This document shows positions 60,701-61,339 of a DNA stretch of 64,000 nucleotides, in pieces. A program made the translations under genes and the position numbers. Source of the stretch: Owenia fusiformis (Eukaryota > Annelida > Polychaeta > Sabellida > Oweniidae); the NCBI GenBank assembly GCA_903813345.2, contig CAIIXF020000001.1, positions 8,001,098-8,065,097 of the forward strand. The letters run 5' to 3'. How positions within the stretch are numbered: position 1 is the first letter of the stretch; each line of letters opens with the position of its first letter. Below the pieces are notes generated by a model. The model did not search any database, was not told the origin of the DNA, and saw only the letters and a list, made by a program, of their open reading frames with translations.

Positions 60701-61339
60701 AATTTGGTGGTTGTCATAGTTACCATTGCTTTGTGTTTTATTTTGCAGTCCTATGGGTCCGAGAGGGAGTAAACAATTCAGCTCGTTCACTCTCCAACCA
60801 TCTTCAAACAAGTACACCCCCTCCTCTGGAGGGCTACCTCGCACAAACTCCCAAGATGCTAGTTCAATGGGATAGCGAACTGACTGGGACACTTGTCCTA
60901 TATGTCTCCACATGCACATGGCTTTGACACTGCACACGATGCACATGGCCAGGAAGTATTGATCAATATCCATTAAGTTGCAGCAATTTTAGGTGTTGTT
61001 GTGATCAGCCATTGCTTCTAAAGCTATGTACCTATGTACTCTCTTGTTATGAGCCACAGTTCTTATGATTGTGCTCTCACAGGCGTAACATTGCTTGCCA
61101 TCTGTAAAAGATGGTGAACATCCTAGCACATAATGTACTCAATGCAGGTGTGCTATAGGTGAGGTCTATAGGTGTGCTCTCTCGGGTGGTGTGCTGTAGC
61201 TTTATGTTGTACTTTCAGTCCTATGCCATCGAGGGGAGCCAAGCAATACACATCATTTAATTTACCTCAGAAGCAACTATCATCCCCCGTCTCTAAATCT
61301 GCGACACTTCCACCCAATATGAAGCCTCCAAAGAGCTAG
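24436..61339 (+). CDS. ROCK: Rho-associated coiled-coil kinase (ROCK/Rok), whole gene
   Basis: This is a serine/threonine AGC kinase that acts downstream of GTP-loaded RhoA; in animals it phosphorylates myosin light chain, the myosin phosphatase targeting subunit and LIM kinase to drive actomyosin contraction. About 36 coding exons can be chained from ATG 24436 with every splice phase matching. Domain order is N-terminal region, kinase, AGC tail, coiled coil, Rho-binding segment, PH domain with inserted C1 finger, and variable tail. The form without optional exons and ending at 60875 is 1392 codons; vertebrate ROCK1 and ROCK2 are about 1354 and 1388. Landmark strings such as [42 protein letters not shown] and VNKLAEIM identify ROCK specifically and not MRCK, DMPK or citron kinase. 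The introns hold many mobile elements. The exon blocks are detailed in separate entries. Confidence 0.97.
25850..26105 (+). mobile_element. 5'-truncated Helitron-like fragment
   Basis: It contains the core phrases GTGAATACTATAAGCATGGC and AAAATGGCTGCCATTTTTGC and the terminal GTTCGATGGGATTTGTTACG, CTTTGGCATTGTC. These match the right half of the copy at 52550-53874. Hairpin start and tetranucleotide tract are absent. Confidence 0.65.
26155..27622. mobile_element. 1468-bp TIR element with TTA duplication (PIF/Harbinger-like)
   Basis: The ends GGCCAAACAAAAATATATG (26155) and CATATATTTTTGTTTGGCC (to 27622) are inverted repeats of about 28 bp with one mismatch. Direct TTA occurs at 26152-26154 and 27623-27625. 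A TTA/TWA duplication is the mark of PIF/Harbinger elements. Sub-terminal AGGGTAGG/AGGGTCGG repeats occur inside both ends. No transposase was recognised; the longest frame (27168-27467) has no known motif. Confidence 0.75.
30700..31230. repeat. Diverged tandem repeat, ~37-53 bp units
   Basis: Units of the form AAGTCATGTGTGAAAATATC, ACATGTAGGCC recur about ten times with variable spacers (ACTGGCCCAGGCC inserts in some). Decay increases towards the left. Confidence 0.8.
32331..32510. mobile_element. Degenerate TA-flanked pogo-like MITE, 180 bp
   Basis: It starts GAGTAAAACTAGTCTAATC after TA and ends ATATTTTACTG before TA. The inner phrases GTGTTCACATTGAGAGGTG and TTCATATTAGGGGTGTTC match the other family members. 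Confidence 0.6.
37690..38177. repeat. Tandem repeat of ~180 bp, about 2.7 copies
   Basis: The phrase ATCAATATTATCACATTTTG recurs at about 37788, 37961 and 38140, with shared TTTCACTTCCTCTCAAAACT and GATGTTCAGATGTTT segments. It lies in ROCK intron 6. A frame at 37812-38159 stays open by chance. Confidence 0.8.
38285..38349. repeat. 23-bp tandem repeat, about 3 copies
   Basis: The unit GCAAACTAGTGCTAGTGCAA, GAT is repeated from about 38289 and lies in ROCK intron 6. Confidence 0.85.
38479..39049. mobile_element. hAT-like MITE ending 38 bp before a kinase exon
   Basis: The ends CAGGGCTTGCATTA (38479) and TAATGCAAGCGCTG (to 39049) are inverted repeats. GGCGTCC and GGACGC words occur inside, mirrored by GCGTCCTTGGGAC near the right end. 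CAGNG starts are typical of hAT elements, but the 8-bp target duplication is unclear. The right end lies 38 bp upstream of the exon starting at 39088. Confidence 0.55.
40058..40533 (+). CDS. ROCK: ROCK exons 9-10: AGC kinase C-tail and linker
   Basis: Exon 9 (40058-40217) encodes the AGC tail, with [24 protein letters not shown] and the hydrophobic motif [12 protein letters not shown]. In ROCK this packs on the kinase N-lobe and joins the dimer interface. Exon 10 (40482-40533) encodes [18 protein letters not shown], a low-complexity linker leading to the coiled coil. It ends in phase 0, where the optional microexons follow. Confidence 0.93.
40750..40755 (+). CDS. ROCK: Candidate 6-nt microexon in the ROCK linker
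   Basis: GTTGAT lies between a pyrimidine-rich acceptor (ACTGCCTGCCAG) and a consensus donor GTAAGTG. It would add Val-Asp in phase 0 between exon 10 and exon 13. Both splice signals are strong, but six bases is too little for coding evidence, so this rests on the splice sites and phase alone. Confidence 0.35.
40888..41008. repeat. ~20-bp tandem repeat, 6 copies
   Basis: The unit GAAATTGTGACACATTGTAG(T) repeats with A/T and G/C changes. It lies in the ROCK intron between the two candidate microexons. Confidence 0.85.
41649..41663 (+). CDS. ROCK: Candidate 15-nt microexon in the ROCK linker
   Basis: ACTGCTGCAGTACCG follows TTTTCCCTTTCAG and precedes GTAAGTGCC, both close to consensus. It encodes TAAVP in phase 0, so inclusion or skipping keeps the frame. 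It lies in the region where vertebrate ROCK linkers vary most. Confidence 0.55.
41928..49265 (+). CDS. ROCK: ROCK exons 13-26: central coiled coil
   Basis: Exons: 41928-42016, 42280-42376, 42752-42910, 44024-44104, 44485-44650, 45077-45183, 45390-45540, 45814-45974, 46434-46618, 47452-47521, 48071-48174, 48420-48606, 48818-48911, 49171-49265. They encode about 580 residues rich in E, K, Q and L in heptads, from about residue 423 to 1004. This is the parallel coiled coil that spaces the kinase from the membrane-binding end. The segment [20 protein letters not shown] and the block [20 protein letters not shown] are the best conserved with other ROCKs. All phases match; the donor after 42910 is GC instead of GT. 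Confidence 0.94.
42911..44023. other. ROCK intron with GC donor, carrying a Helitron-like element
   Basis: The donor reads AAACTG followed by GCAAGT and the acceptor is TTTTCTAG. Only this border keeps the phase: exon 42752-42910 has 53 full codons and the next exon starts CTGGCAGATCTG in frame. GC-AG introns are a small minority in animals. Confidence 0.8.
43072..43818 (+). mobile_element. Helitron-like 'pearl'-type element, 747 bp
   Basis: It begins TCCCAACGAACGAAGTTCGG, running into TAGGGATATAG (a 5' palindrome), preceded by A. Next come GTCCGTCAGTCAGTCAGTCC-type tetranucleotides and core segments in which TTCAAAATGGC-type words recur. It ends CTACTCCGCGGAGTTGCC, ATTATCTAG followed by T. 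TC start, CTRR end, a hairpin (CTCCGCGGAG) near the 3' end and insertion at AT fit a non-autonomous Helitron. Confidence 0.75.
47304..47459 (+). repeat. 79-bp direct duplication of a splice acceptor region
   Basis: The block ATTAAAATGTTTTTCATAAC through GGTTTATTCTTT, then (A)AG/CAG and CTCTTAC, occurs at 47304-47381 and again at 47383-47459. The second copy holds the true ROCK acceptor and the first seven exon bases. The first copy carries TTTAATAG and CTCTTAC, a potential decoy acceptor (exon start 47375). A shorter relative starts near 47213. Confidence 0.9.
47590..47830. repeat. G-rich minisatellite, ~17/34-bp units
   Basis: Units AGGGGTGAAATGTCTA and AGGGGTGAAAAGTCC alternate about 14 times in the intron before exon 48071. 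G-runs of four recur on the + strand every 15-17 bases. Confidence 0.85.
49567..50183 (+). CDS. ROCK: ROCK exons 27-28: Rho-binding segment and end of coiled coil
   Basis: Exons 49567-49701 and 49964-50183. Exon 27 begins [14 protein letters not shown], the signature of the Rho-binding region of ROCK, and continues with a basic stretch [16 protein letters not shown] (about residues 1005-1049). Exon 28 continues the helix ([34 protein letters not shown]) and ends with a serine/acid-rich linker ([17 protein letters not shown]). By homology the parallel helices contact switch regions of GTP-Rho. The linker between basic parts differs from vertebrates ([16 protein letters not shown] here). Confidence 0.93.
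50339..52296 (+). CDS. ROCK: ROCK exons 29-33: PH domain split by a C1 zinc finger
   Basis: Exons: 50339-50507, 50832-50985, 51170-51308, 51574-51639, 52173-52296. The PH half starts [11 protein letters not shown] (about residue 1125) with [14 protein letters not shown]. The C1 finger (about 1240-1299) has the spacing H-X12-C-X2-C-X15-C-X2-C-X4-H and a last Cys in GPCK; where classic C1 domains have another Cys, there is His (HKDH), as in other ROCKs. The PH domain resumes with [16 protein letters not shown] and ends [14 protein letters not shown]. The unit binds acidic membrane lipids and is thought to hold the C-terminus at the membrane. All phases match. Confidence 0.95.
52550..53874 (+). 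mobile_element. Longest Helitron-like 'pearl'-type element, 1325 bp
   Basis: It is preceded by A and starts TCCCATCGAACGAAGTTCG, GAGGGATATAGG (near-palindrome). A (CCGT)n tract with CGTA variants follows (about 52588-52680). Core units of about 130-155 bp then repeat six times; each carries AAATGGCCGCCATTTTAACG, CTCGAAAAGTAGTGGAGCG and GGTATGTGAATACTATAAGC (at about 53018, 53174, 53322, 53457, 53585, 53717). It ends GGGATTCGCTACGCTTTGG, CGTTGCCGTTGTTCTGG followed by T. It lies in the ROCK intron between exons 33 and 34. Confidence 0.8.
54140..54239 (+). CDS. ROCK: Optional ROCK exon 34: cassette or alternative C-terminal end
   Basis: The acceptor GTTTAACAG precedes G, completing the split Gly codon from exon 33. 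The exon then reads [26 protein letters not shown]. If spliced at the GT after TCACG (54217) it is a 78-bp in-frame cassette leading to exon 58100 or a last exon. If not spliced, the frame continues YMPFLD and stops at TAG 54237-54239, giving a different short C-terminus. The internal donor (CACG, GTACAT) is weak, so the read-through form is credible. The peptide is more hydrophobic than the rest of the tail, and I know no counterpart in vertebrate ROCK. Confidence 0.5.
55600..55807. mobile_element. Long-TIR MITE, 208 bp
   Basis: The left arm GGCCTCCTAGACTTCAATCG, CAAACATCAGTTCTGACC and right arm GGTCAGAACTGATGTTTGCG, AGTCTAGGAGGCC are inverted repeats of about 55 bp. The loop is richer in CpG than its surroundings (TCGCGCACC, ACTCGCGAAC). 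No clear target duplication was seen. It lies in a late ROCK intron. Confidence 0.75.
56422..56695 (+). mobile_element. Short Helitron-like element, 274 bp
   Basis: It is preceded by A and starts TCCCACCGAACATAGTTCG, AGAGGGATATAG. A (CTGT)n tract follows at about 56480-56522. There is almost no core. It ends GGGATTTGATACAGTACTCC, ATGGAGTTGCTGTTTTCTCG followed by T. The end CTCG departs from CTRR but matches the fragment at 4280, which suggests a subfamily. Confidence 0.65.
57174..57341. mobile_element. Intact TA-flanked pogo-like MITE, 168 bp
   Basis: CAGTAAAACCTGTTTTAGTG at 57174 and ATACAGGTTTTACTG ending at 57341 are inverted repeats flanked by TA on both sides. The inner GTGAACACC phrases are mirrored by GTTCACT. 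This is the cleanest member of the family and it lies in a late ROCK intron. Confidence 0.85.
58100..58132 (+). CDS. ROCK: ROCK exon 35: short basic tail exon
   Basis: A 33-bp segment between TTAATTCTAG and the donor GTAGAT enters and leaves in phase 2. It encodes [10 protein letters not shown] plus the split codons. The RRVS string is a basophilic kinase consensus. It can be skipped without frame change. The coding evidence is short, but the position, phase and tail-like composition fit. Confidence 0.6.
60749..60875 (+). CDS. ROCK: ROCK last exon, version A
   Basis: The acceptor TTATTTTGCAG is followed by T, completing a Ser codon, then 41 codons and TAG at 60873-60875. It reads [16 protein letters not shown], then a Ser/Pro-rich end ([26 protein letters not shown]). 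It resembles the SPR-containing tail of vertebrate ROCKs. It is homologous to version B 470 bp downstream, has the same phase, and because of its stop the two cannot be used in series. Confidence 0.75.
61219..61339 (+). CDS. ROCK: ROCK last exon, version B (duplicate of A)
   Basis: The acceptor GTTGTACTTTCAG is followed by T, then 39 codons and TAG at 61337-61339. It reads [16 protein letters not shown], then [24 protein letters not shown]. Ten of the first 16 residues equal version A, including SPM, RG, KQ and SF, while the ends differ fully. The splice phase is identical. These features mark an old tandem duplication of a terminal exon, giving two alternative C-termini. Confidence 0.72.

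Follow-up and report, generated by a model that had tools for sequence, protein, structure and literature searches.

The 3′ end of a ROCK gene in the annelid Owenia fusiformis raises the question of whether a single gene can supply this kinase with either of two C-terminal tails. ROCK is a main Rho effector driving actomyosin contraction, and its tail adjoins the unit that keeps it off. The stretch of DNA analysed here (the window) comprises 64,000 nucleotides, positions 8001098-8065097 of contig C1, in a genome of 498 Mb and 525 contigs that was searched alongside it; all coordinates below are those of the window. Near its end, on the plus strand, two exons that we call tail A and tail B follow one another, and each terminates in a stop codon of its own. 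The duplication of the ROCK tail exon is real and old, with both copies coding-like, and the tail is probably set by the choice of acceptor. Terminal exons duplicated in this way are already known from other genes; for ROCK, our searches of an open-access library for a tail switch found no such report. As a gene feature, the pair would be an instance of a well-known route, in which exon duplication is followed by alternative use.

The two tail exons of the ROCK gene

Tail A, the upstream terminal coding exon (60749-60875, plus strand), is 127 nt in length including its TAG stop and encodes 42 residues, and tail B, the downstream one (61219-61339, plus strand), is 121 nt in length including its TAG stop and encodes 40 residues. 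The start of tail A lies 470 bp from the start of tail B, and 343 bp separate the stop of A from the first base of B. Both tails are preceded by AG acceptors (ttttattttgcag for A and gttgtactttcag for B) and both are in phase 2, with the first T of each closing a codon opened in the upstream exon. The upstream donors at 52296, 54217 and 58132 are each followed by GT and are each in phase 2, and all eight joins that we tried from these donors to A or B were open and in frame to TAG. The acceptor of A scored 9.3, a value equalled or bettered by a fraction of 0.009 of 3,395 plus-strand AGs, and the acceptor of B scored 6.9 (a fraction of 0.041 of the same AGs); both values fall inside the span of 1.0-12.4 covered by the best-scoring acceptors of 24 other ROCK exons.

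Directly after the PH-C1 unit the tails share a core, SPM..RG.KQ..SF.L, past which they are divergent; both may be disordered. Ten of the 16 leading residues are identical, the first Ser taking two of its bases from the upstream exon. The sequence-only reading had described two exons 470 bp apart with the same acceptor phase, a shared opening pattern, similar length and separate stops, and each of these features was confirmed. Common phase, similar length, homology and an open frame in both copies are what we looked for in a duplicated terminal exon, and all four were found.

The likeness between the two tails stood out from the rest of the window in two comparisons. Among 3,651 AG-anchored phase-2 frames of at least 10 amino acids from both strands, A and B scored 51 against one another, and the next scores were 21 (against A) and 17 (against B). 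Among 41,480 overlapping stop-free 18-mers from all six frames, compared without the shared serine, the A/B score was 47, followed by 31 (against B) and 20 (against A). The tails were mutual best matches in both cases. A gapped local alignment was less extreme than these ungapped tests, its score being attained by 2 of 5,000 residue shuffles. No third tail copy stood out in the window, either among the AG-anchored frames or among the six-frame 18-mers, and in the genome A and B matched only themselves at expectation (E) values up to 10, such short queries being insensitive to diverged copies.

The pattern of codon differences was examined in the 15-codon block over which A and B align. Nine of its 15 amino acids are equal, and six of these nine are encoded by different codons; the differences at codon positions 1, 2 and 3 number 4, 5 and 9, respectively, giving a proportion of synonymous differences (pS) of 0.83, which is beyond correction, and a proportion of nonsynonymous differences (pN) of 0.27. 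When 18 differences were placed randomly without creating stops (20,000 trials from each copy), at least nine equal residues were obtained with P = 0.0019 starting from A and P = 0.0024 starting from B, by a crude neutral null that ignores multiple hits and bias. Among 400 intronic open frames, a fraction of 0.0075 had a codon score as good as that of A and a fraction of 0.0025 one as good as that of B; these scores were trained on 1,062 codons of the same gene, and the signal may partly be amino-acid make-up. A protein match combined with many silent codon differences and with no significant likeness of the DNA fits an old tandem duplication of the ROCK tail exon in which both copies would be held by protein-level selection. 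The mutual best match, the codon pattern and the coding-like scores also bore out the earlier proposal that the exon had been duplicated in tandem and kept open in both copies.

The plus-strand host gene is identified as ROCK by sequence similarity, in agreement with its earlier assignment. Part of a kinase-domain exon (39089-39316, plus strand) was compared with PDB sequences by phmmer and matched ROCK1 with an E value of 3.1e-45, the best ROCK2 and the best MRCK following at 1.3e-44 and 7.3e-31; in this one kinase exon tested, the kinase domain is of the ROCK type. Near the C-terminus the PH domain is split by C1, an arrangement as in ROCK. A PH-domain exon at 50832-50985 (plus strand; borders from the best splice score only) forms the part of the split PH that precedes C1, and the stretch 50866-50994 matched PDB entry 2rov (ROCK2) with an E value of 2.9e-7, across its first 26 residues. 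Between this exon and the last PH exon lie the C1 exons (51170-51308 and 51574-51639), C1 having been identified by eye. The last PH exon (52173-52296, plus strand) encodes 41 residues by translation and leads into the tail through a strong phase-2 donor (GG/GTGAGT, score 10.7). When used as a genome query it gave one match, which was itself, and with this one short exon as the query no second ROCK locus was seen in the genome. A search for the Rho-binding domain (PF08912), made exon by exon across the genome, returned no match, and the same search matched 0 of 14 controls, so that the missing match carries no information on the domain. The sequence-only reading had counted molluscs as the relatives in which to compare this locus, a placement that no test here supports. 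Pfam searches of the genome with molluscan haemocyanin and with COX1 each returned no match; the haemocyanin search matched 0 of the 14 controls and is thus uninformative, and COX1 matched 8 of them, its absence here perhaps reflecting a mitochondrial contig that is not among the sequences searched. In the genome-wide domain searches, all 28 PH matches were on contigs C1-C12, as were the kinase matches among those listed (124 of 876 candidates scored) except for four, on C67, C200, C266 and C489.

A proposed composite terminal exon and its alternatives

In the reading that we favour, the one ROCK gene ends in a composite terminal exon whose two 3′ splice sites compete. Judged from sequence, this reading in its full form (the composite exon, an old duplication, both tails selected as protein, and a tail choice that affects ROCK) is somewhat better than an even bet. 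We infer that A and B are both spliced into RNA. A phase-2 donor (52296, 54217 or 58132) joined to 60749 would yield tail A and leave B as untranslated sequence, and the same donors skipping on to 61219 would yield tail B. The two RNAs probably have a common 3′ end, both presumably ending at the same AATAAA sites. The choice of tail would most likely alter phosphorylation or partner binding beside the autoinhibitory PH-C1 unit.

The stretch between the tails (60876-61218, plus strand) would be an intron for B and is predicted 3′ untranslated region for A. A search of it for 12 kinds of poly(A)-type hexamer gave 0 matches, with 0.68 expected and a chance of none of ∼0.5. Beyond B, hexamer matches revealed two plus-strand AATAAA sequences, at 61383-61388 and 61421-61426, which are candidate shared poly(A) signals, and the next ATTAAA after them is at 63701. 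An AGTAAA at 60768 is within the coding part of A and precedes the A stop. The composite terminal exon is favoured because no hexamer was found between the A stop and B and because AATAAA occurs only after B. On this reading, mutual exclusion needs no special mechanism, since A carries a stop and the acceptor used fixes the tail. The earlier description of the pair as mutually exclusive last exons can be retained in part: both exons have terminal coding status and the outcome would be either/or, but the tails need not be last exons separate from one another, and no dedicated mechanism of exclusion is required.

Several points weigh against this reading. With respect to the duplication, DNA similarity between A and B was not significant (chance fractions of 0.17 upstream, 0.17 in the exons and 0.13 downstream), the tails do not align past the 15-codon block, and this block is short and was picked by eye as the aligning part, which flatters the test against the neutral null. 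The splice scores were derived from generic matrices. With respect to the 3′ end, the absence of hexamers between the A stop and B is weak evidence when its chance is ∼0.5, and some poly(A) sites lack any of these hexamers. In addition, an AATACA at 61245, inside B, could end the A RNA there, and donor-like sites at 61147 and 61158 could make A an internal exon.

Use of the AATACA within B for an A-only 3′ end would suit the picture drawn by the sequence-only reading, in which the tails are alternative last exons in the strict sense, cleaved and polyadenylated separately, with the choice coupled to 3′-end processing. Homologous terminal exons elsewhere can be spliced as multiple poly(A) sites; human capping protein beta, as described in PMC3228551, has adjacent homologous alternative terminal exons like those here but multiple poly(A) sites. 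The 0 matches among 12 hexamer kinds between the A stop and B argue against this arrangement, though with a chance of none of 0.5, and we regard it as possible but rather improbable.

The donor-like sites at 61147 (gcag/gtgtgc, score 9.3) and 61158 (atag/gtgagg, score 9.9), located 71 and 60 nt before B, allow another arrangement in which only B is productive. An RNA joined to acceptor A would then be spliced again, with 61147 or 61158 as donor and 61219 as acceptor, and the resulting junction far beyond the A stop would probably mark it for decay, so that A would tune the level of ROCK. Of the best-scoring donors taken for 24 other ROCK exons, 20 score below 9.3 and 22 below 9.9, and the junction would fall 272 or 283 nt beyond the A stop. 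The intron removed would measure only 71 or 60 nt, however, compared to 155-533 nt in the 8 measured of 23 exon gaps, and the protein-level likeness of A and B would be unexpected for a mere decoy. We consider this arrangement unlikely.

The proposal that one tail copy is dead, or that the A/B likeness is due to chance, draws on just 10 of 16 leading residues being equal, on an unaligned remainder and on gapped shuffles that reach the observed score 2 times in 5,000. Mutual best matching by a wide margin, two phase-matched acceptors at the 3′ end of the gene and a codon pattern of constraint all speak against it, and we judge it very unlikely. Fusion of A and B into one longer tail via a donor within A is barely credible: donors after 60784 and 60811 would preserve the frame, but neither scores >2, and the sites above 2 in 60760-61218 start at 60992.

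Related cases are available in Drosophila. The pip gene has neighbouring, homologous alternative terminal exons as here, and PGRP-LC, a precedent for the choice proposed, has neighbouring alternative terminal exons whose 3′ variable regions are chosen at a proximal 3′ splice site (described in PMC9013439). That source reports competing RNA structures for both PGRP-LC and pip, whereas the tails here are proposed to share a single 3′ end. Seven pairs of inverted repeats of at least 14 nt were found in 58133-61500, none of which we would take for a competing structure. One perfect 14-nt inverted pair, 59284-59297 and 59540-59553, lies in the intron before tail A with its arms 242 nt apart, and may represent the two termini of a small mobile element. 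Just upstream of acceptor A, the tract 60727-60742 is 81% complementary to 61421-61436, which includes the second AATAAA; both are A/T-rich, the match is probably due to chance, and it was given no weight.

Possible consequences of tail choice

The C-terminal PH-C1 region of ROCK holds the kinase down, according to PMC4653301, and the tail is autophosphorylated when the kinase is active, at Ser1333 in ROCK1 and Ser1366 in ROCK2 (PMC4653301 and PMC4174894). Ser1333 of ROCK1 is conserved in vertebrates, as stated in PMC4174894. These two serines substantiate the earlier remark that known ROCK tails follow the PH-C1 unit and contain phosphosites. The tails of vertebrate ROCK1 and ROCK2 are short and come directly after the split PH-C1 unit, as here. 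Vertebrate ROCK tails hold an SP motif, as do both tails described here. To our knowledge, vertebrate ROCK has one tail per gene; here there are two in one gene.

For a comparison of the tails we used a ROCK2 14-mer, aligned ungapped. Tail B matched this 14-mer at 5 of 14 positions, with a Ser opposite Ser1366, and tail A matched at 4 of 14, with a Pro opposite. The corresponding shuffle P values were 0.003 (B) and 0.018 (A), and with SP fixed they were 0.04 (B) and 0.19 (A). A phospho-switch operated by tail choice is put forward as a hypothesis only. In its most specific version, splicing would swap the autophosphorylated serine: B would keep the Ser1366 equivalent, A would have Pro and gain an RGS serine, and the active state could be marked or fed back in one form only. 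We consider this version unlikely; if true, splicing in one invertebrate ROCK gene would accomplish some of what vertebrates may achieve with two ROCK genes.

A splice-made ROCK variant altered in the C-terminal half, as proposed here, is available in ROCK2m, the muscle splice form of ROCK2 (PMC4653301). It differs from the present case in that, by the account given there, 57 residues are inserted downstream of the Rho-binding domain and the tail is not switched. If the tail pair is as proposed, it would offer natural variants for asking about tail function, and a conserved tail switch, if true, would mean that invertebrates diversify ROCK at its extreme C-terminus.

Candidate cassette exons and other features of the window

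The stretch 52320-60700 was scanned for exons with phase 2 at both ends, using thresholds of at least 5.5 for acceptors and at least 4.0 for donors that were set after both of the candidates described here were known. The scan covered both strands and returned three exons, all on the plus strand, with a 78-nt candidate and a 33-nt candidate ranking first and second of the three. When 400 intronic open frames were scored in the same way, none reached the codon score of the 78-nt candidate cassette exon (54140-54217, plus strand), and a fraction of 0.01 reached that of the 33-nt candidate (58100-58132, plus strand; 10 residues). The 33-nt candidate encodes RRVS, which we take to be a PKA-like motif. 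If used, the two cassettes would allow up to eight tail combinations.

Repeats are present in several parts of the window. At 52540-53860, in the intron that follows the last PH exon, a CGTC-rich simple repeat precedes several copies of a unit of ∼130-150 bases (by eye and very rough), and similar translated stretches occur near 1789-2757. On the minus strand, 13152-13802 holds a 216-amino-acid open frame that by eye resembles part of a non-LTR retrotransposon reverse transcriptase. A 15-base repeat that translates as NPVVR/NPVLR forms two arrays, at about 6460-6583 (plus strand) and 8944-9123 (minus strand).

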